From Candidatus Bathyarchaeota archaeon (lineage in GTDB: Archaea > Thermoproteota > Bathyarchaeia > Bathyarchaeales > Bathycorpusculaceae): a stretch of DNA of 45,321 nt. Location: positions 1-45,321 of the forward strand of contig JACAEK010000019.1 in assembly GCA_013388895.1 (NCBI GenBank), written 5' to 3'. The notes beneath the pieces were generated by a model, which had not been told where the DNA came from, did no database searches, and was given only the letters and a program-made list of their open reading frames with translations. How positions within the stretch are numbered: position 1 is the stretch's first letter; the number at the start of each line of letters is the position of its first letter. Positions 20,613-45,273 of the stretch are shown here, in pieces. A program made the translations under genes and the position numbers.

Positions 20613-23600
20613 ATGCCCCACATTAAAAAAATTGAGCTTAAGGGTTTCAAATCCTTTGGACCGCAAATCGTTAAAGTAGTCCTAGATAAGGGCTTCACAG
20701 CCGTCACGGGACCAAACGGAAGCGGAAAGACAAACATCATCGATGCGGCTTTGTTCGCCTTATGCGAATTAAGCACTAAAAGGCTTAGGGCTGAAAATGC
20801 TGCTAAACTAATTTTTCATGGTTCTGAGAAGGCGGGGCTGGAAAGAGCAAAAGTAGCCAAAGTCATAATTCAATTTGACAACATAGACGGGCGCATGCCA
20901 GTTGACACCACAACCGTTACAGTCTCGCGAGAAGTTTACAGGAATGGTCAAAGCGTTTACAGACTTAATGGTAGGCGAATTTCGCGGGCGCATGTTTTGG
21001 ACGTTCTTTCCATGGCTGGAATCAGTTCCACCAGCCAGAACATAATCTTGCAAGGCACCATTACACGGTTAGCTGATATTTCTCCCATGGAACGTAGAAA
21101 AATCATCGAAGATTTAGTGGGAATAGCTCAATATGACGCTGAAAAAGCAGAGGCTGAAGAAAAATTGCGAGCGGCAGACCTGTCTATACGCACAGCTATG
21201 GGTAGAATTGACGAAGTTCAAAAAAGAGTAGACGACTTGGAAAGAGAACGTAACGAACTACTAAGAAACAGTTTCATCCAAGGCGAAATAAAAAAGTTTG
21301 AAGCTGTGAAAATTTCGCATGAAATGGCTGACATCCAAGGAAAAGTGAAAGACACATCTTCACAAGCGGACAAAGTCCAAAGTAGAGTTGAAAGATTAAG
21401 ACAGATACGAGAAGATTATAGGTCGAAGAGAAGAGAAGTTGAAGGTGAATGGCGTAAACTAAGCTCAGAAATAGTTGAAGAAGGCGGCTCGCAAGTATTA
21501 AAGGTTCAGATAAGAATCGGCGAGTTGAAGTCGAAATTAACGGAATTGACGACAAAAATTACTTCGGGAAAAACCAGCCTCGAAGGCTTAAGGCGAGTCA
21601 GAGAAAACAATCTTCAGCAATATCAGACTATTCGAAACGAAATCCGAGAAAATCGATTGAAAATCAAAAAATCAAAAAGTGAACACGAAGGAATTTCCAG
21701 TCAAATAGCCGTAAAACAAGCTGAACACGACGTTTTCGTAAGCGAAACTGCACAGCTTTGGGAAAACATGGGTGAAAACAGCAAAAGAATACGCGAAATC
21801 GAACAGCAATTAGACGATCATTACAAACGGCTAACGTTTCTAAGGTCAGAACAAGTGAAAAACCAAACAGCCATCAAACTTCGCGCGAGACGCCTAAGAG
21901 ACTTAAACGACCGCTACGAAAGATTTGTAACAACAAAAAATGAATTGGAAAAATCCTTTACAGATCTTGAAAAAGTGCAGAAAGAACAGAAAGCACAGCT
22001 TAAAAACCTAGAGCGTACACTCGAGCGAAGGAGTGCGCAAAAAGATGCAATAGAAAAGGAGATAGCCGAAGCTGGAAAGATAGCTGACTCAGCTCGAACA
22101 GCAGTCATCGAATTTCTTACTCAGAGGGAACTTGCAGAAACCGTGGCTGCAGAAGAAAAAGCTCTGCGAAGCATAGAAGAACTGGGCGAGTTAGGCGTAA
22201 TTTCCGGCGTTTACGGTAGGCTTCGCAATCTAATCAAGATTGACAAGACTTATCAACGTGCGATTGAGGCTACGGCAGCAGGATGGCTCGACGCCGTAAT
22301 TGTCAAAGATTTTGACGCCGCCTTCACATGCACAGAAACATTGCGCAGAATGAAGCTTGGAAGAATTAAGATAATTCCGCTTCAAGGGGCAATGAACCCT
22401 AGGTCGCTAAAATTACCTCAGAAAGAAGGTATAAACGGCACTGCTTCCATTTTCATTAAGTACGAGAAGCACTATGAGACCGCTATTCATTTCGTTTTTG
22501 GCGACACTTTAGTCGTTTCAGATGACAAAACCGCTTTTTCCTTGTCAAATGAAGGCTATCGTGCAGTTACTGTTAATGGAGATCTTTATGAGGCTGGCGG
22601 AGCTTTTGAAAGCGGTTACTATCGGGCTCCGATAGATTTTTCCACAATTATCCCCAGCGAAACAGCCATTAAAAGTCTCGACGAAGCCGTCAAAGCCTTA
22701 CAGCAACATCTTTCAAGAAGAGACAGCGACGTGGTGTCTTTCGAAGAAGATATTGCCAAAACACAAGTTGAAATTGCGCATTTGTCAGAAGCCATAACAA
22801 CGCTTGACAGAGAAATAGTCAGAGTTAGAAGAAGCATCAAACGAGCAAAAGCCAACATAAGACGAGTCAGTAATTCCATTGAACGATTCAAGAAGGAAGT
22901 TGATAACGAAAAAACGCAAATGTGGCTCCACAAGGCAGAACGAAGCACAATACAGAGGGAAATGCGCAAACTTCAAAACGAGTTAGCTACGCTAAGACGC
23001 AAAACAGATCCGTCAACCATTCAAGAAATGGAGGTTAAAAGGGAAAGGCTCGCCGAGGAAATTATCACTTTAAGACAAAAACTTGGCGCAATCCAGACAG
23101 AAATGTCAACCTTACAGTCCCAATTTGACAACGTTTTAAGAGTTGGGTACCAGAACGCAAAAATTCAACTAGCCAAAGTCGAACAGCAACAAAGAAAAGT
23201 TGAGAAAGAAGTGGAAGAAGCGCTCGAACAACGGGAAGCGCTAAAACACGAAATTGGCGAATTGGAGAAAAGCAGGGTTCAGCTTTCTAAGACCGTTTTA
23301 TCCGCCAGAGATGAAGCTAAAAAATTCACTGCACAAATAGATGATATAGACAAAGAACTTCGCGAGCTTGATTCAGAATATGAGCAAACAGATCGTCTAC
23401 TAAGCCAGCTTCAGCTGAACATTCAAACATCGATGCTTCAACTCGAACAGCATCGAAGCCAGCTTAGGCAATTTGGCTACGAACAGCCACTAGAGGTAAC
23501 GCCCAAACAGGTTGAGGAGGCTGAGACCTCCATCAAAATGATGCAGTTCGAACTGGAAAGAATCGGCGCAGTAAACCAGCTTGCTCTATCCCATTATGCC

Positions 23601-24164
23601 GAACAGATTTCACGATACAAAGAACTTTCATTAAGAATGAATGAGCTTGAGCGAGAAAAACAAGCCATCGTGCAGTTCATGGACGAAATCGAACACAAAA
23701 AGCGTAGGGTTTTCACTGAAGCCTTTGAAAAAATCAACAATAACCTAGAGAAGTATTTCTCCAAACTTACAGTAGGTGGAATCGCTACATTAAAACTGGA
23801 AAACTTTGAGGAACCATTTTCAGGCGGTATAGAAATGCTTGTTCAGTTTCCACGCAAACCTTCAATAGTAGTGAGTGGAGCTAGCGGAGGCGAACGTTCA
23901 GTCGCGGCTGTTGCCTTCTTATTTGCGTTACAAGAGTTTACGCCTGCTTCATTCTACATTCTTGACGAGATAGACGCCCACTTAGACGCTTTCCATGTTG
24001 CGAAACTTGCTGACCTTCTTCTTGAGGAGTCAGAAAAAACGCAGTTCATAGTTATCACATTGAAGCCTGAAATGGTGAACAAAGCGCAAAAAGTTTATGG
24101 AGTTTATGAACGCAATGGAGTGTCAAATGTTGTCTCGGCTAAATTTCTGGAGGTGCAAGGCTGA
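20613..24164 (+). CDS. smc: chromosome segregation protein SMC
   Basis: A 1183-residue SMC ATPase. The N-terminal head has Walker A GPNGSGKTN (G33-T40) after IELKGFKSFG. Coiled coil runs from about 170 to 510. The hinge lies about 520-660 (GVISGVYGRLRNLIKI...YQRAIEATAAGWLDAVIVKDF...AMNPRSLKLP). A second coiled coil reaches about residue 1030. The C-terminal head has the ABC signature VSGASGGERSVAAVAFLF and Walker B FYILDEIDAHLD. It forms the ring that organises and separates chromosomes. ScpA begins immediately after its TGA, and ScpB follows, so all core parts of the bacterial-type condensin are present. Confidence 0.97.
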   Translation: MPHIKKIELKGFKSFGPQIVKVVLDKGFTAVTGPNGSGKTNIIDAALFALCELSTKRLRAENAAKLIFHGSEKAGLERAKVAKVIIQFDNIDGRMPVDTTTVTVSREVYRNGQSVYRLNGRRISRAHVLDVLSMAGISSTSQNIILQGTITRLADISPMERRKIIEDLVGIAQYDAEKAEAEEKLRAADLSIRTAMGRIDEVQKRVDDLERERNELLRNSFIQGEIKKFEAVKISHEMADIQGKVKDTSSQADKVQSRVERLRQIREDYRSKRREVEGEWRKLSSEIVEEGGSQVLKVQIRIGELKSKLTELTTKITSGKTSLEGLRRVRENNLQQYQTIRNEIRENRLKIKKSKSEHEGISSQIAVKQAEHDVFVSETAQLWENMGENSKRIREIEQQLDDHYKRLTFLRSEQVKNQTAIKLRARRLRDLNDRYERFVTTKNELEKSFTDLEKVQKEQKAQLKNLERTLERRSAQKDAIEKEIAEAGKIADSARTAVIEFLTQRELAETVAAEEKALRSIEELGELGVISGVYGRLRNLIKIDKTYQRAIEATAAGWLDAVIVKDFDAAFTCTETLRRMKLGRIKIIPLQGAMNPRSLKLPQKEGINGTASIFIKYEKHYETAIHFVFGDTLVVSDDKTAFSLSNEGYRAVTVNGDLYEAGGAFESGYYRAPIDFSTIIPSETAIKSLDEAVKALQQHLSRRDSDVVSFEEDIAKTQVEIAHLSEAITTLDREIVRVRRSIKRAKANIRRVSNSIERFKKEVDNEKTQMWLHKAERSTIQREMRKLQNELATLRRKTDPSTIQEMEVKRERLAEEIITLRQKLGAIQTEMSTLQSQFDNVLRVGYQNAKIQLAKVEQQQRKVEKEVEEALEQREALKHEIGELEKSRVQLSKTVLSARDEAKKFTAQIDDIDKELRELDSEYEQTDRLLSQLQLNIQTSMLQLEQHRSQLRQFGYEQPLEVTPKQVEEAETSIKMMQFELERIGAVNQLALSHYAEQISRYKELSLRMNELEREKQAIVQFMDEIEHKKRRVFTEAFEKINNNLEKYFSKLTVGGIATLKLENFEEPFSGGIEMLVQFPRKPSIVVSGASGGERSVAAVAFLFALQEFTPASFYILDEIDAHLDAFHVAKLADLLLEESEKTQFIVITLKPEMVNKAQKVYGVYERNGVSNVVSAKFLEVQG

Positions 24165-24866
24165 ATGGCGTCTGCAGTCATCTCAAGACCGTTTTATCTG
24201 CGTCCTCCATGGAACATTCTCTTCGAGTTTCATAAACTTGAAAAGCTTACTCCTTGGAACATTAATATTGCCTATCTGCTTGCATCTTTTCTTGAGGAGA
24301 TGGAGAAAACTGGGCAAACTGATTTCCGCGCATCCGGCGTTGCGCTTGATTCTTCAGCCCTCATATATCTTATGAAATCTAAGCTTTTACTTAAGCTTGA
24401 AGAACCGCCGCCTCCGCCTAAGCCTCCGCAGGACTTTCTTCCTCCACCATTATTTTTGCCACTTAGACATGAGTTAACTTCAACAACCATAAAGCATCTG
24501 TTGGAAGTGTTAGACGACGTCTTAAAAGGAGAGAAACTAATCCATTTAGAGAAAACTGTTGCCGAACCAATTCTCCCAGAACCTTCAGAGATTTTGCCGC
24601 AACTTGACGCCTTTCTTGTTGAAATTGAGCTTCAGATGGAAAGACTTTACTCTTTCCTTTCTGAGAAAGTTAAAGGCGCTGGAATAGTGGAATTCTCAAC
24701 TGTAACAAAAGGTGTGGCACGATTGGATGCCATTCGCACTTTCATTCTTTTGCTGTTTTTAGCGCAAGATGGGCGAGTAAGTCTGTGGCAAAATGAAGAA
24801 ACTGAGGAAATATACGTAACAATCGGAGATTTGAGAATTGCAGAAGGCGGAAAAGCGGATAGTTGA
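24165..24866 (+). CDS. scpA: segregation and condensation protein A (kleisin)
   Basis: A 233-residue kleisin that bridges the SMC heads. N-terminal helices contain PWNILFEFHKLEKLTPWNINIAYLLASFLEEM, corresponding to the neck-binding part. A central proline-rich linker (EEPPPPPKPPQDFLPPP, about residues 77-95) is followed by a C-terminal winged helix (VKGAGIVEFSTVTKGVARLDAIRTFILLLFLAQDGRVSLWQNE). The ATG directly follows the smc stop, so translation is coupled. Archaeal ScpA is divergent, but context and fold pattern agree. Confidence 0.92.
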   Translation: MASAVISRPFYLRPPWNILFEFHKLEKLTPWNINIAYLLASFLEEMEKTGQTDFRASGVALDSSALIYLMKSKLLLKLEEPPPPPKPPQDFLPPPLFLPLRHELTSTTIKHLLEVLDDVLKGEKLIHLEKTVAEPILPEPSEILPQLDAFLVEIELQMERLYSFLSEKVKGAGIVEFSTVTKGVARLDAIRTFILLLFLAQDGRVSLWQNEETEEIYVTIGDLRIAEGGKADS

Positions 24867-35892: not shown

Positions 35893-36255
35893 TCACCCGA
35901 TTATTCTGACGTTTGAGCCTTTAGGATTTTTCTTGATGAGCTCAGAAAACGACAAGGTTTTGCCCTTGGCAGCCTTTATTTTTTTGTTTGCTTTTTCGGA
36001 GAAAGCGAACGCTGTTATGGTTATTGGATGGTTTATTTCGCCTGCACCTAACACCTTGCCTGGAACGACTACTACTTCCTTCTTTTGTGTATGCCTATTT
36101 ATGCGGCTGAGGTTCACAGCTAAACGTTTCCTTCTTGGTTTGGATAGATACTCAGCAATGTCTCGCCAAATTTCAGCCCTATTTTCCTTGCTTTGCTTTT
36201 TTAGAAAAAGGATAAGATCTGTAAGCTCTGGGTTCGTTGTTTTAGCTTTCTTCAA
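35893..36255 (-). CDS. rpl18e: 50S ribosomal protein L18e
   Basis: A 120-residue L18e (eL18, related to L15). NPELTDLILFLKKQSKENRAEIWRDIAEYLSKPRRKRLAVNLSRINRHTQ and VVVPGKVLGAGEINHPITITAFAFSEKA are characteristic. The start overlaps RpoD by 14 bases. Confidence 0.96.
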   Translation of the reverse strand: MKKAKTTNPELTDLILFLKKQSKENRAEIWRDIAEYLSKPRRKRLAVNLSRINRHTQKKEVVVVPGKVLGAGEINHPITITAFAFSEKANKKIKAAKGKTLSFSELIKKNPKGSNVRIIG

Positions 36256-37063
36256 TCTTCTTCACCTTGATTTGGCTTTCGAACTCCTTTAACTGTTTGT
36301 CCAGAATTTTAATGGCTTCTGAGAGTATCCGTTCTGGAGATAGTGCGCCAGACGATTCAAGACTGAATATGAACGTGTCTTTTTCCCAACTAACCTCTAT
36401 TGGTGGTGGATTCTGTGTGCAGGCTTCAACACAGTCCATGCAGAGGATACAAGCCATCAAGTTGCGAATTTCCACCTTGTTTTCTGTTTTGGCGTAAACA
36501 TTTCTTGGGCAGATGTCCACGCATTTTCCACATCCATCACAATTCTTGGAGATTTCTATTTTTGGCATGTACTTGTATGTGCACATCGAAACTGGTTGCC
36601 ATTTCGCGTGATTCTTGCCCTTTCCAAGCCTGACATACGCTTCAAGCCTTATTTTCTGTTCTTTCGCCAATTTGACTAATGGGATTTTGCCACTCACTGG
36701 AGCTATTTCCGGGTTTTCCGATTTTAATTCGTCTGAATAAACAGTTTTTGTTCCTTCTTTGGCTTCCACATCTAAAGTGAGTGTGACTCTGCAAAGGTTA
36801 CATCCAAATTCGCTTTTACATGGGCATTCTTCAGGCAAATTGTAACTATCCAAGTCTGTTTTGAGGGGGATGAGACCAAGCCTATGTGCTACAATTTCAT
36901 CTTGCAATATAGAAGAATTCTCAAGCATCACAATTTCATCTACAGCCATGCATGGGACTTCGGTCATTATTATCCGTCTCAAGGCGTTCACGTGGGGAAC
37001 GTTAGTTCCTCGAATTAGTAAACGCATGTTTTTTTCGTCTTTTTCAAGCACTTCAATTTCCAC
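36242..37063 (-). CDS. rpoD: DNA-directed RNA polymerase subunit D with two 4Fe-4S modules
   Basis: A 273-residue RpoD (Rpb3 homologue, RpoA-like assembly subunit). The N-terminus NVPHVNALRRIIMTEVPCMAVDEIVMLEN is the dimerisation domain. Residues about 80-92 carry CPCKSEFGCNLC, resembling the Rpb3 zinc loop. Residues about 175-220 are a ferredoxin-like insert with two complete CxxCxxCxxxC sets: CDGCGKCVDICP and CILCMDCVEACT. Thus two [4Fe-4S] clusters are predicted; many archaea keep one or none. The start is GTG 37061-37063. It precedes L18e in the conserved order. Confidence 0.97.
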   Translation of the reverse strand: MEIEVLEKDEKNMRLLIRGTNVPHVNALRRIIMTEVPCMAVDEIVMLENSSILQDEIVAHRLGLIPLKTDLDSYNLPEECPCKSEFGCNLCRVTLTLDVEAKEGTKTVYSDELKSENPEIAPVSGKIPLVKLAKEQKIRLEAYVRLGKGKNHAKWQPVSMCTYKYMPKIEISKNCDGCGKCVDICPRNVYAKTENKVEIRNLMACILCMDCVEACTQNPPPIEVSWEKDTFIFSLESSGALSPERILSEAIKILDKQLKEFESQIKVKKIEES

Positions 37064-38966: not shown

Positions 38967-41900
38967 ATGCAAAAATCAGCTTTTTTATCTTTTATGCTTA
39001 TTACAACTCTGCTACTTAGTAGCATTTCAGCAGCAATAACATCTGTGACATATTCACAAAACAAGGCATTTCTAGAAACAGTGGAGGAGAATGTGCTTGA
39101 TAAAGGCTATGATCAAACACGGCAGATATCTGGCGGCAATGATATCTCTAATACAACATCTGATATATTCAGGAAAAACCCATGGATGCGCCTCAAATCT
39201 TCTGAGTGGAAGAAATTCGCCCAAGTTACAGGCAACTTAGCTGAGTTAGTTATAGGCATCAGCACATCTTCCGAAGCAGGTTATGTAGAGTTAGAGAACT
39301 TTATCCAAAATGGAAAAGGAAAGATTCTCAAAAAACTATACGCTGGAAATGATGTTGCGGCGTTCGTTGTTGGTTTACCTTTTGACTCAATTCCTCTTCT
39401 TGTGAATGTTCAAAGAACTACCCAATCTTTCAGATATGTTGAACCCAACAGGCTAGTTCAAGCAGATTTTGTTCCGAACGACCCTCAATGGTCTCAACAA
39501 TGGGGACCTAAAAAGATAGAAGCCGATTATGCTTGGAATGCAACAGTGGGTAGTTCATCGGTTTTAGTAGCTATAATTGACACAGGCATCGATTATATGC
39601 ATCCTGATTTGGCTTATAATTATGCGCCAGGCGGTTATGACTGGGTCAACTATGATGACGATCCAATGGATGACCATGGTCATGGAACTCACTGCGCCGG
39701 AATAGTTGCTGCCGTTATCAATAACGGCATAGGAATCACTGGGATCGCCCAAGTAAGCGTGATGGCTGAAAAGTGTCTTAATGATCAAGGCTTCGGCGAT
39801 GATGCAGATTGTGCTCAAGCGATAATCCATGCAGTAGATCAAAGTGCAAAAATATTAAGTTGCAGTTGGGGAGGCTCTTCAAGCTCGGTCATCCATGACG
39901 CCATAAAATATGCTTATAGTCATGGAGTAATTGTATTAGCGGCTGCAGGAAACACCGCTAATAGCTACGAACATTATCCGGCCGCTTTTGACGAGGTTGT
40001 AGCAGTTACGGCTACAGACAGTAATGATAGTCCAGCTGATTTCACAACATTCGGCGAGTGGGTTGAGGTTTCTGCTCCAGGTGTTGCCATACTCTCAACT
40101 ATTCCTGGCGGTGTGTACCTCTACGCAAGTGGAACCTCAATGTCATGTCCACATGTTGCAGGTGTTGCCGCTTTGATTCTGAGTAGATTTCCAGATTTGA
40201 CCATTAATCTACTAAGGCAAGCGATTCTATATGCTACTGATGATTTAGGTTGCCCGGGTTTTGACATCTATTACGGTTATGGCAGAATCAATGCAAGGAT
40301 AGCTGTTGAGGCATCCGTTTCTGAACACGATCTTGTCCTTTGGGAAATGCTTACGCCACCTTTTGTAGAACCTGGGAGTTCCGGTTTCATTAACGCGACC
40401 GTATATAACGCGGGATTGTCAGATGAAAGCGAAATACACGTACAACTGCTTGAGAATGGAACAATGGTTGACTCTGAAGTAATTTCGTTCCTACCCAAAG
40501 ATTCGTTTGCAAATGTTAGTTTAATTTGGAATCCGGAAACTGAAGGAGACCATAATCTCACAGCTTTTGTTGTTCCTGTTACTAACGAAACAAATTTAAG
40601 GTTCAACAGTCAGTGTGCGTGCGTTCAAGTCGGTTTTCCATTGAAGGTTGCCGTAGTGGACTCTGATGGTTGTTGGGACCAGCACACCATTAGTGAAGTT
40701 TGGGAAAGATTGAACAGAGACTGGCGCTATTTTGGCGACCAAATGATTCTCATTGACTATACTTCATTGGCTAAGCTTAACATCTCATACAATGATATAA
40801 GCGCCACAAAAGCCGATGTACTTTTCATTTCATGTGCTGAGGCTCGGGAGTATACTGACGAGGAAATTGATGCAATCACTCGATACGTCTATGAGGGGCA
40901 TGGCTTGATCGCAACAGCTGGAACTTTTTACTCTCCTTGGGTTCCTAATAACAATAAGCTTGCGCCCCTTCTTGGGTTAAATCAAAATCTGCATTGGAAC
41001 ATAACTGAACTTGATGTTATGGAGGTGCTTGACCTCGAACATCCATTATTCACTAACTTCCCAACAACATACAATCTCAGTGAGCTCGCGCTTGGTAGTA
41101 TTTCAGAAGATTACTGTTGGGATTCCAATGAATTATGGGAAGGACAATATGTAGCGTTGGGAAGTGAAGGTCTTTCTGCAATTGTGACGTACAGAGGATT
41201 GGTCTACATTTCTCCCTACCTGGAGTTCATAGGTTATTGGGAATGTCCAACTATATCTCCACTAAACCTTGATCATCTACAACTCTTTTACAACGCAATA
41301 ATATGGTCAAAGTTCCAGAAGCCAGAACATGAGTTAATTGCTTCTTTGAAAACAAGTAGCATAACAATAGTTGGTGAAGAAGCTCAGATCAACGCGGTTG
41401 TCTCCAATATAGGATTGAGTAACGAAACAAATGTAACGCTCAGAATAATCATCAACGGAAGCATCGCGTACAGCGAAGTAATACCGAACCTGTTCAACGG
41501 GTCCGCATATACACTTGCATATTCGTGGGTACCCGCAACATTAGGCGAGTACAATGTAACAGTGTTCATACAACCAAACCTTGGTGAAGACAACATACGA
41601 AACAATGTTGCGTCTATGAGGGTTAATGTTGAACCTCCAATAAGAGAAAAAAACATTCTCATAGTAGCTGATGATGATGGAGGTGCTAAAACGAGCCTGC
41701 AAGAATTCCAATACGCCCTTGATAATATCGGATGTAGCTACTATGTTTGGAGAGAAGAAACACTAGGCTCACCGCCCTTGGATTTCATTAGTCAATTTAA
41801 GCTGATAATCTGGACATGTGGCGAGGCAGCTGACATGCTTGACTGCGTATCCACAACTGATGCTTTAAGTCTAATTACCTATGCGAAGCAAGGTGGAACC

Positions 41901-44108
41901 GTTTTCCTTGAAGGCAGCTTCATAGCATACACTCACATGTTTGATACTGACTTCAAAAAGTATGTAATGCATGCTAATTTTCTGGGTATGACTTGGCCTT
42001 GGCTTGGCGGAACTGAAGGGGCGAAAGTAATAGAAACAAATCAATTAGTAGTTTGGGGTTTGCCAGAACTGACTTATTGGAGCGATGTGCCACGTATAGC
42101 CCAAGGTATCACACCAGCATATGAGGGAGTGACAATTCTTAACTACATAGACAATCCTGAACCTGTTACACCACCTGACCATTTTCCACTTCCAAAGGTT
42201 ATCGAATGGGGCGCCATTGTTGTTTCAGAAGAATATGATAGGCACTCAACCATATTCTGTTCTTTTCCACTTTTTGGTCTTCCCGAAAGTGAGAGAAACC
42301 TGATAATAAAAAATGCTGTCAATTGGCTTATTCCAAAAGAGCATGATCTCGCTGTGACGATTACCACCTTCAAAGACAACTTTCACGACATAAAATATCC
42401 TGCATGGATAAACGTGACTGTCACTAATTGGGGACTTACCGATGAAACAAACATTGGATTACAAGTATCAATTAATGGGACAGTTGTCGACTCTGCAATA
42501 ATCTCTTCTATGTCCACTGGTTCCACTTATGCGCTTAACCATCTTTGGACGCCTGAAAAAATAGGAACATACAATATAACCGCCCATGTGCTTCCACTTT
42601 TGGATGAAGATGTTCTATATAATAATGTAATAAGTAGCTCCGTCAATATCCGGCATATTGTAGTGGCTTTAATATCGAACAAGGAAGAACTGGAAAACAT
42701 TATTCCCCTCCTTGACTCAATAAAAATAGGCTACCACATATACAGTGGGAACAAATACTACGACTATTCTGAAGACATTGAACTGTTGTTGGCTCATCGT
42801 GTTGTAATCATGATAAAGAGTTGGGCGCAAACAACTGCAAACGAGCATGCAGCACTGAAATCTTATTTAGCAGCCGGTGGCAACTTGCTTGTCACTGGTG
42901 AAGGTTGCCTTCTTTCAGACGCATTTCCCACAAGAATTGATACATACATGTGCGATATTGTTGGTGCAAACTGCTCTGGACTCTACTTTCCACTACCAGA
43001 AATTGGAATAATGTATATAATGAATAACTCGCACCCAATAACTGACGGACCATTTGGGAAATTTGATATTGGATACACAACTTCTGTAAGATATACGTAT
43101 TGCGAAAATGCAACCGCGGATACTTCGAAGAATGCTGTTGTAATCTCTAAGTGGCTGTCTCCAGATTGCCCTGCAGACAAAATTATTGCAACAGATCTCA
43201 CATCAGGGAAAGTAGTGTTTTGGAATGGCAAAGGCAACACAGAGTGGATCCTCAATGATGATTGCCAGATGATCTTTAGGAACCTAATTAATTGGTTTGA
43301 GTTTGGGTTGTACCATGACTTGGAAACCTCTGTGCAAATCCTTGGAGTGATAGAACCAGGTGAGCCCTTGACTTTGAATGTAACAGTTTACAATAATGGT
43401 TACTTTGATGAGCATGATGTCACATTAAGTCTATTCATTGACAGCATTAACGTCTACTCTATAGAGATACCCACTCTGATGAAACGAACATTGTATAGAC
43501 TTGACTATTTGTGGGTTCCGCCAAGTGAAGGATTATATAATGTTACAGTTTACACGCCGATTATTCCAACAGAGCTCAACCAAACAAATAATATATTCTC
43601 AAGATTTGCCTTGGCAAAGCATGCAGATATAGCTATTACAAATGTGGTTCTTTCCAAAAACTTTGTGGGCCTAGGATTCCCTCTAGGAATACACGTAACC
43701 CTTGCGAATCTGGGAAACTTCACTGAAACCTTCAACGTCACAGTATACGCTAATGCTGCCGTCATTAAGACGGGGACTGTGACGCTGACAAATCGAAGTT
43801 ATGTGACTCTTATCTTCATTTGTGACACTACAAGTTTTGACAAAGGCAACTACACGATAAGTGTTTGTTCGGAACCTCTTCCAGATGAAATAGACAATAC
43901 CAATAATGTGCCTTTTGATAATTACATCTTTGTGACAATTCCTGGAGATGTAAATGGCGATAGATTTGTCAATGCTAAAGACGCAGTAATTTTAGGTGAA
44001 GTATTTGGCAATTCTTCTGGAAATCTGGATGCCGATATTAATGGTGACGGGTGGGTCAATGCCAAAGATGTTACAATCTTAGGTATACACTTCAACGAAT
44101 ACTGGTAA
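38967..44108 (+). CDS. secreted subtilisin-like protease with CARDB repeats, GATase-like domains and C-terminal dockerin
   Basis: A 1713-residue protein. It has a signal peptide (FLSFMLITTLLLSSISAA), a propeptide-like region to about 170, and a peptidase S8 domain at about 175-445 with the full catalytic set: IIDTGIDY (D205), DHGHGTHCAG (H239), AAGNTAN (N329) and SGTSMSCPH (S391). CARDB-type repeats follow at about 453-545, 788-890, 1126-1230, 1450-1550 and 1552-1652, marked by NATVYNAGLSDES, NAVVSNIGLSNET, NVTVTNWGLTDET and NVTVYNNGYFDEH. Between the first four lie three alpha/beta domains resembling GATase/flavodoxin folds (ADVLFISCAEA, FKLIIWTCGEA, HRVVIMIKSWA). Residues 1659-1713 are a dockerin with DVNGDRFVNAKD and DINGDGWVNAKD. 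No C-terminal membrane anchor is present. Confidence 0.93.
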   Translation: MQKSAFLSFMLITTLLLSSISAAITSVTYSQNKAFLETVEENVLDKGYDQTRQISGGNDISNTTSDIFRKNPWMRLKSSEWKKFAQVTGNLAELVIGISTSSEAGYVELENFIQNGKGKILKKLYAGNDVAAFVVGLPFDSIPLLVNVQRTTQSFRYVEPNRLVQADFVPNDPQWSQQWGPKKIEADYAWNATVGSSSVLVAIIDTGIDYMHPDLAYNYAPGGYDWVNYDDDPMDDHGHGTHCAGIVAAVINNGIGITGIAQVSVMAEKCLNDQGFGDDADCAQAIIHAVDQSAKILSCSWGGSSSSVIHDAIKYAYSHGVIVLAAAGNTANSYEHYPAAFDEVVAVTATDSNDSPADFTTFGEWVEVSAPGVAILSTIPGGVYLYASGTSMSCPHVAGVAALILSRFPDLTINLLRQAILYATDDLGCPGFDIYYGYGRINARIAVEASVSEHDLVLWEMLTPPFVEPGSSGFINATVYNAGLSDESEIHVQLLENGTMVDSEVISFLPKDSFANVSLIWNPETEGDHNLTAFVVPVTNETNLRFNSQCACVQVGFPLKVAVVDSDGCWDQHTISEVWERLNRDWRYFGDQMILIDYTSLAKLNISYNDISATKADVLFISCAEAREYTDEEIDAITRYVYEGHGLIATAGTFYSPWVPNNNKLAPLLGLNQNLHWNITELDVMEVLDLEHPLFTNFPTTYNLSELALGSISEDYCWDSNELWEGQYVALGSEGLSAIVTYRGLVYISPYLEFIGYWECPTISPLNLDHLQLFYNAIIWSKFQKPEHELIASLKTSSITIVGEEAQINAVVSNIGLSNETNVTLRIIINGSIAYSEVIPNLFNGSAYTLAYSWVPATLGEYNVTVFIQPNLGEDNIRNNVASMRVNVEPPIREKNILIVADDDGGAKTSLQEFQYALDNIGCSYYVWREETLGSPPLDFISQFKLIIWTCGEAADMLDCVSTTDALSLITYAKQGGTVFLEGSFIAYTHMFDTDFKKYVMHANFLGMTWPWLGGTEGAKVIETNQLVVWGLPELTYWSDVPRIAQGITPAYEGVTILNYIDNPEPVTPPDHFPLPKVIEWGAIVVSEEYDRHSTIFCSFPLFGLPESERNLIIKNAVNWLIPKEHDLAVTITTFKDNFHDIKYPAWINVTVTNWGLTDETNIGLQVSINGTVVDSAIISSMSTGSTYALNHLWTPEKIGTYNITAHVLPLLDEDVLYNNVISSSVNIRHIVVALISNKEELENIIPLLDSIKIGYHIYSGNKYYDYSEDIELLLAHRVVIMIKSWAQTTANEHAALKSYLAAGGNLLVTGEGCLLSDAFPTRIDTYMCDIVGANCSGLYFPLPEIGIMYIMNNSHPITDGPFGKFDIGYTTSVRYTYCENATADTSKNAVVISKWLSPDCPADKIIATDLTSGKVVFWNGKGNTEWILNDDCQMIFRNLINWFEFGLYHDLETSVQILGVIEPGEPLTLNVTVYNNGYFDEHDVTLSLFIDSINVYSIEIPTLMKRTLYRLDYLWVPPSEGLYNVTVYTPIIPTELNQTNNIFSRFALAKHADIAITNVVLSKNFVGLGFPLGIHVTLANLGNFTETFNVTVYANAAVIKTGTVTLTNRSYVTLIFICDTTSFDKGNYTISVCSEPLPDEIDNTNNVPFDNYIFVTIPGDVNGDRFVNAKDAVILGEVFGNSSGNLDADINGDGWVNAKDVTILGIHFNEYW

Positions 44109-44838: not shown

Positions 44839-45273
44839 ATGAAAATGTTGAAGAATAGGAAAGCCCTAAGCCCTGTAGTTGCGTCAATCATACTTATTGC
44901 TGTAACAGTCGCTGTAAGCATCGCTGTAGCTGCATGGATGGGAGCATTGACATTCACTTTCACGCAAACTGAGCAGGTGACTTTCACAGCGTATCAGTGG
45001 GGATCTCCAGGAACTACGGTACCATACATATTGATAACAATAAAGAACACTGGTGCAACAGACTTATCTATAGCTGAAATACGCGTAGATGGCTCAACAA
45101 CTGGCATAACAGTAACACCCTTATTAACGACTCCATATGCACTGACGAAAGGCTCCTCAGTTCAGTTCAATGTTACCAAAAGCGGTGGATATACTCGAGG
45201 AGTACAGTACAGTTTCATGGTAATCACAGCTAAGGGCAACCAATTCGGTCCATACGTGCAAACTGCTCCATAA
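44839..45273 (+). CDS. archaeal type IV pilin-like protein
   Basis: A 144-residue protein with a class III signal peptide. The basic start KMLKNRKA is followed by LSPVVASIILIAVTVAVSIAVAAWMGAL, the pilin N-terminal helix; prepilin peptidase should cut after KA. The rest is a beta-rich head with FTAYQWGSPGTTVPYILITIKNTGATDLSIAEIRVDG. Such pilins form adhesion or surface filaments. No pilus assembly ATPase is in the window. The first ATG is at 44839 and a second at 44845. Confidence 0.88.
   Translation: MKMLKNRKALSPVVASIILIAVTVAVSIAVAAWMGALTFTFTQTEQVTFTAYQWGSPGTTVPYILITIKNTGATDLSIAEIRVDGSTTGITVTPLLTTPYALTKGSSVQFNVTKSGGYTRGVQYSFMVITAKGNQFGPYVQTAP

Follow-up and report, generated by a model that had tools for sequence, protein, structure and literature searches.

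A dockerin-tailed subtilase in a Bathyarchaeial genome and the cohesins that may hold it at the cell surface

Anoxic sediments are rich in Bathyarchaeia, whose diet is believed to include buried protein. A 45,321-nucleotide stretch of DNA from a Candidatus Bathyarchaeota archaeon, analysed here at its whole length and called the window, encodes a secreted subtilase that ends in a dockerin and carries no membrane anchor, which raises the question of what would keep such an enzyme at the cell. From the sequence we consider it probable, at roughly 60%, that secreted proteases and peptide-binding proteins are attached to the cell by a cellulosome-like surface assembly. If such a modular complex does couple proteases with a peptide importer, it would account for the way Bathyarchaeia digest protein outside the cell.

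The subtilase open reading frame (38967..44108, 1713 aa; this and all features of the protein are on the + strand) begins with ATG and has no internal stops. It was found that the hydrophobic N terminus, a predicted signal peptide at approximately residues 1-25 (38967..39041), is the sole hydrophobic helix in the 1713 aa, and that the C terminus has no membrane helix. The S8 protease domain (residues 161-450, 39447..40316) was delimited by Pfam, the triad positions and a phmmer comparison with thermitase; the Peptidase_S8 match covers residues 197-439 (E 6.6e-55), and the complete catalytic triad (Asp205, His239 and Ser391), together with the oxyanion residue Asn329, assigns the domain to MEROPS S8. 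The nearest solved structures are thermitase (phmmer 2e-65) and the AK.1 protease. The thermitase-like chains 1thm and 1dbi share this catalytic domain (E 2e-65) but have none of the CARDB, alpha/beta and dockerin modules that follow it in the window.

Five stretches of the protein match CARDB (Pfam, E 4.7e-41), at 40323..40622, 41322..41636, 42342..42650, 43305..43601 and 43611..43931. The first is also supported by an AF2 model and Foldseek, and the fifth belongs to a CARDB-dockerin cassette (residues about 1546-1713) common to other proteins of the genome, with 46-51% identity to protein endings on contigs C21, C56 and C35. Modelled with AF2 (pLDDT 77), residues 453-893 have the arrangement CARDB, alpha/beta, CARDB, and the CARDBs of the model match the Pyrococcus PF1109 CARDB with TMt values of 0.83-0.89 in Foldseek. 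The type I dockerin (43941..44081) has the duplicated calcium-loop/helix motif typical of its class (about 55 residues), with the two loops, DVNGDRFVNAKD and DINGDGWVNAKD, following the pattern DxNxD...NAKD; the Dockerin_1 match (residues 1659-1705, E 7.4e-8) scores 32.9 bits against a Pfam cut-off of 22.9. The order claimed by the earlier note, S8, CARDB, alpha/beta, CARDB, alpha/beta, CARDB, alpha/beta, CARDB, CARDB and dockerin, was recovered behind the signal peptide, and the intact protease, the lack of a membrane anchor and the C-terminal dockerin were likewise borne out. A rare-peptide search of genome contigs found no close relatives of the whole subtilase.

The three modules between the CARDBs were harder to name. 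Module 1 (40632..41321; GIFT/ThuA/GATase1-like) is kept in relatives at 44-56% identity, and its AF2 model alternates strands and helices between CARDB folds on both sides. Module 2 (41637..42326) was recognised by its position between CARDBs and by seed comparison and has no Pfam family match of its own, and module 3 (42672..43301; ThuA/GIFT-like) was recognised by weak ThuA and IFT52_GIFT matches. No confident Pfam family was found for any of the three, and profile searches against the PDB gave nothing significant. The weak matches (IFT52_GIFT 0.006; ThuA 2.7e-4, in a relative; DMFA2_C, ABC_transp_aux, DUF4350 and DUF4159) all converge on the class I glutamine-amidotransferase-like superfamily. 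A comparison of module 1 with module 3 gave only a weak match. Because the weak matches fall in one superfamily and the model has the strand and helix pattern, the description of these modules as GATase-like, which came from the earlier note, is plausible; the structure prediction that it had called for does place an alpha/beta module between CARDBs, but the Foldseek list for the module 1 model consists mostly of CARDB.

A dockerin would need cohesins, and the earlier note had taken their absence from the genome as grounds for abandoning its proposal. The genome of the window (archaeal, 1.58 Mb, 95.8% complete) was found to contain seven PF00963 cohesin matches, of which two exceed the Pfam cut-off, both narrowly, and thirteen dockerins at E<=1e-3. 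The uS4 protein of this genome has 85% identity to the one in a Candidatus Bathyarchaeota MAG. A cluster on contig C38 encodes a protein with a cohesin and, at its C terminus, an IPEF-type membrane helix (C38:15720-16355), a scaffoldin with three cohesins, a CARDB and a dockerin (C38:16454-18385), a PKD-type dockerin protein (C38:18587-20239), a two-cohesin protein (C38:20301-22109) and a dipeptide/oligopeptide-type ABC transporter, the binding protein of which has a dockerin at its end (C38:26744-29053). For the scaffoldin, an AF2 model with pLDDT 85 has 3l8q, the type II cohesin dyad of Acetivibrio ScaA, as its top Foldseek match (2e-16) and also matches the Archaeoglobus cohesin 2xdh (TMt 0.78); a scaffoldin orthologue in a relative has three cohesins (E 3e-27). 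The same genome therefore has a multi-cohesin scaffoldin and, judging by sequence only, a surface anchor in the cohesin with the membrane helix. Two M14 carboxypeptidases also end in CARDB-dockerin, a further dockerin protein is a beta-helix protein, and peptidases are the commonest recognisable enzymes among the dockerin proteins of this genome. Pfam scans of its cohesin and dockerin ORFs found no CBM or glycoside hydrolase, so the system is not a cellulosome in the strict sense. Because cohesins, a scaffoldin and a membrane-anchored cohesin are all present in the same genome, a dockerin-cohesin surface complex including the subtilase is well supported as a hypothesis.

Two further proteins of this genome were observed. 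One, a small protein (L040:18428-19237, G000:C38:38428-39237), has an N-terminal zinc ribbon, an HTH-like segment, one membrane helix and an extracytoplasmic cohesin-like domain, with a weak cohesin match and no Pfam matches, and is possibly a membrane regulator sensing dockerin occupancy. The other (L042:5062-6879, contig C29) has a dockerin followed by a cohesin and may be a cysteine peptidase of clan CD (HGGG motif); it has no clear start, and since there are stops in frame upstream, the gene may be decayed or frameshifted.

A survey of 91 genomes of the family found cohesins in 52 and dockerins in 52, with both present in 41 and both absent in 28, and the counts of the two are correlated (Spearman 0.68, 91 genomes). 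A locus with an Opp-type transporter, a dockerin-tailed binding protein, a two- or three-cohesin protein, the scaffoldin and cohesins with C-terminal membrane helices recurs, whole or in large part, in twelve genomes of about ten genera (G000, the genome of the window, and G056, G051, G052, G066, G065, G064, G048, G068, G045, G002 and G076). A search for binding-protein orthologues at E<=1e-90 returned only the query, that cut-off being too strict. Subtilase genes adjoin cohesin genes or the gene of the dockerin-tailed binding protein in G064, G051, G052, G045 and both loci of G066, spanning three genera; the subtilases of G066, G064 and G051/G052 carry a cohesin of their own, and the G064 gene is interrupted by a stop or frameshift. 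The anchor itself is exchanged among the subtilase homologues, seven of which end in a dockerin and 11 in a TM helix. Cohesin or dockerin-tailed binding-protein neighbours were found for 6/7 of the dockerin-bearing subtilases and 1/11 of the TM-anchored ones (Fisher p 0.0025), the single case among the latter, within the flanks examined, being a cohesin gene in G002. When collapsed to genera, the same contrast is 3/4 against 1/6 and not significant (p 0.19), and the linkage of dockerin subtilases to these genes is therefore suggestive only.

The cargo in the relatives is broader than proteases, consisting mainly of NosD-like beta-helix proteins (10/35) and ABC binding proteins of three families, with one penicillin amidase, and most of it is not peptidases. 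A purely proteolytic complex is therefore rejected for the family as a whole. The breadth of the cargo also leaves real weight with a rival explanation, in which cohesin-dockerin pairs are a general tether that attaches many secreted proteins to the envelope, with the subtilase and the peptide importer uncoupled. In the window, moreover, it is ribosomal protein genes that adjoin the subtilase gene, and the cohesin locus lies elsewhere in the genome. Against such a tether stand the adjacency of subtilase genes to cohesin or binding-protein-dockerin genes in three genera and the prominence of peptidases among the dockerin proteins of the window's own genome, and on balance we think it unlikely. 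The protein scavenging suggested by the earlier note consequently has a mixed outcome: it gains from the linkage, seen in relatives, to an ABC transporter of the oligopeptide type and from the two M14 carboxypeptidases, but not from the relatives' cargo.

The choice of cohesin by a cellulosomal dockerin hinges on positions 11 and 12 of each calcium loop (PMC5141474, PMC5301203). When 69 dockerins from 14 populations were aligned, the recognition residues at these positions proved to be almost exclusive to each genome and common to its unrelated dockerin proteins. The pair is Ala-Lys in both repeats of the subtilase dockerin (43974..43979 and 44061..44066), and the same code occurs in the binding protein and the beta-helix protein of its genome, with single variants in the M14 proteins. 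The genus mate G056 has Val-Leu; other codes are Ile-Phe (G066), Gly-Lys (G065), Met-Lys (G064), Met-Asp/Gly (G051/G052), Leu-Lys (G068) and Leu-Phe/Tyr (G002). Identity at the four recognition positions was 0.579 within genomes, for different protein classes, compared to 0.131 between genomes (0.135 for proteins of the same class), whereas the remaining dockerin columns gave 0.511 and 0.391, respectively. The within-genome value exceeded the between-genome value in 13/13 genomes, 0 of 2000 shuffles reached the observed value, equally variable control columns had an identity of just 0.347 within genomes, and the two best of 54 columns were the first recognition position of each repeat. Leaving out the genome of the window had little effect on these numbers (0.604 within and 0.137 between), as did restriction to subtilase, binding-protein and scaffoldin dockerins (0.647 and 0.138). 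The binding proteins of G048 and G002 have degenerate dockerins with eroded calcium loops that keep the local code, and the code of G045 is loose. For dockerins outside the loci, 10/31 matched their own genome best by code (about 2 expected), and other columns did equally well; the code is therefore dominant but not universal.

The G066 bin (L113, L114, L163 and L164) contains three codes, IF, MS/MT and MK, the last of which matches G064, and is probably a mixed bin; dockerin codes could act as a contamination check. In G051/G052, cohesin-CARDB-dockerin proteins (L180:577-1593 and L181:1174-2205) have an IN/KA code that differs from the one otherwise found in these genomes and represents a second class of specificity.

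The cohesins have a related pattern. A tree of the cohesins groups the first ones of different proteins largely by genome, and cohesins 2 and 3 of the scaffoldin as orthologues. The first cohesin of the scaffoldin is nearer to the first cohesins of other proteins in its own genome than to its orthologues in 11/12 genomes, with one tie (G065); per-genome mean similarities are 0.26-0.56 and 0.18-0.30, respectively. Because first cohesins are homogenised by genome and cohesins 2 and 3 are orthologous, the sequences suggest that dockerins are received by the first cohesin, with a structural role for the other scaffoldin cohesins. Whole-domain Mantel tests of cohesin distances against dockerin-code distances were positive but did not single out first cohesins, so the genome-wise cohesin pattern falls short of residue-level co-variation.

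These data also bear on whether the dockerin might instead be a calcium-stabilised C-terminal cap or bind some other partner, with the cohesin-like domains as plain structural Ig-like spacers, a reading that the weak cohesin matches of the window's genome and the ordinary orthologous evolution of scaffoldin cohesins 2 and 3 would allow, but which is made improbable by the coincidence of the genome-private residues with known contact positions, the match of the scaffoldin model to cohesins, the exchange of dockerin for TM helix among homologues, and the cohesin-dockerin binding that, according to PMC9012536, has been verified for other archaea.

For the surface assembly that we favour, we infer physical binding between the partners, peptides as the substrate and an order of assembly as follows. 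The secreted subtilase would be held non-covalently at the cell surface, its dockerin plugging into the C38 cohesins, namely the membrane-anchored cohesin, the scaffoldin and the two-cohesin protein. The oligopeptide-binding protein of the neighbouring ABC transporter and the M14 carboxypeptidases, which bear dockerins too, would be held by these cohesins as well, so that peptides would be set free beside their importer. The CARDB and alpha/beta modules would be a spacer and possibly a substrate-binding arm. Scaffoldins may form chains, because they bear a first cohesin and a dockerin of about the same code. A more ambitious version, which we advance tentatively and with clearly less confidence than the assembly itself, is that Bathyarchaeia build a proteolytic, importer-coupled cellulosome analogue. 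Its scaffoldins, having one active first cohesin and one matching dockerin, could chain head to tail from the membrane-anchored cohesin and gather proteases and peptide-binding proteins, and since cohesins and dockerins would change code together in each species, the proteins of neighbouring species would be unable to plug in. As the code is nearly genome-private, the hypothesis can be tested with small recombinant domains, without culturing.

Parts of such a system are already known. As far as the available text of the ANME account goes (Chadwick et al. 2022, PMC9012536), those archaea likewise have proteins with several cohesins and a dockerin, and dockerin-bearing OppA/NikA-type binding proteins, but they belong to a different phylum, and that text has no conserved ABC permease locus, dockerin subtilase or genome-specific recognition residues. 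Ca. Stygibacter (Cloacimonadota), in the portion of PMC8542988 available, combines a cohesin scaffoldin with S8 (and C25) peptidases that end in dockerins, in a complex proposed for polypeptide and polysaccharide degradation; unlike the system here it is bacterial, its scaffoldin has CBMs and is attached via a conserved C-terminal domain, its cargo includes chitinase and amylase types, and importer coupling is not described in that portion. The clostridial cellulosome has the cohesin scaffoldin, dockerin enzymes, anchored cohesin and pivotal dockerin positions 11/12 in common with the Bathyarchaeial system (PMC5141474, PMC5301203), whereas in the latter no CBM or glycoside hydrolases were seen, the recognition residues of the scaffoldin dockerin are roughly those of the enzymes, and the anchor is a C-terminal TM helix rather than SLH. 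Our literature search, with most subscription papers and all preprints outside its scope, returned nothing on this system in Bathyarchaeia, on a conserved locus linked to a transporter or, for archaea, on genome-private codes; as far as searched, what is new is that the protease-transporter locus is conserved and that the code is genome-private.

The remaining observations concern other genes of the window and a second giant subtilase. Just downstream of the dockerin subtilase gene (44839-45273, +) is an archaeal type IV pilin-like protein with a weak Pilin_N match. The upstream ribosomal protein cluster includes an RNA polymerase subunit D-like protein (36242-37063, -) whose cysteine motifs are of the 4Fe-4S type, which is ordinary for archaea. 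SMC and ScpA-like genes next to each other (20613-24866, +) form an ordinary condensin operon. The second giant subtilase of the same genome (L051:1052-6112, contig C44; 1686 aa) has a C-terminal membrane helix in place of the dockerin.
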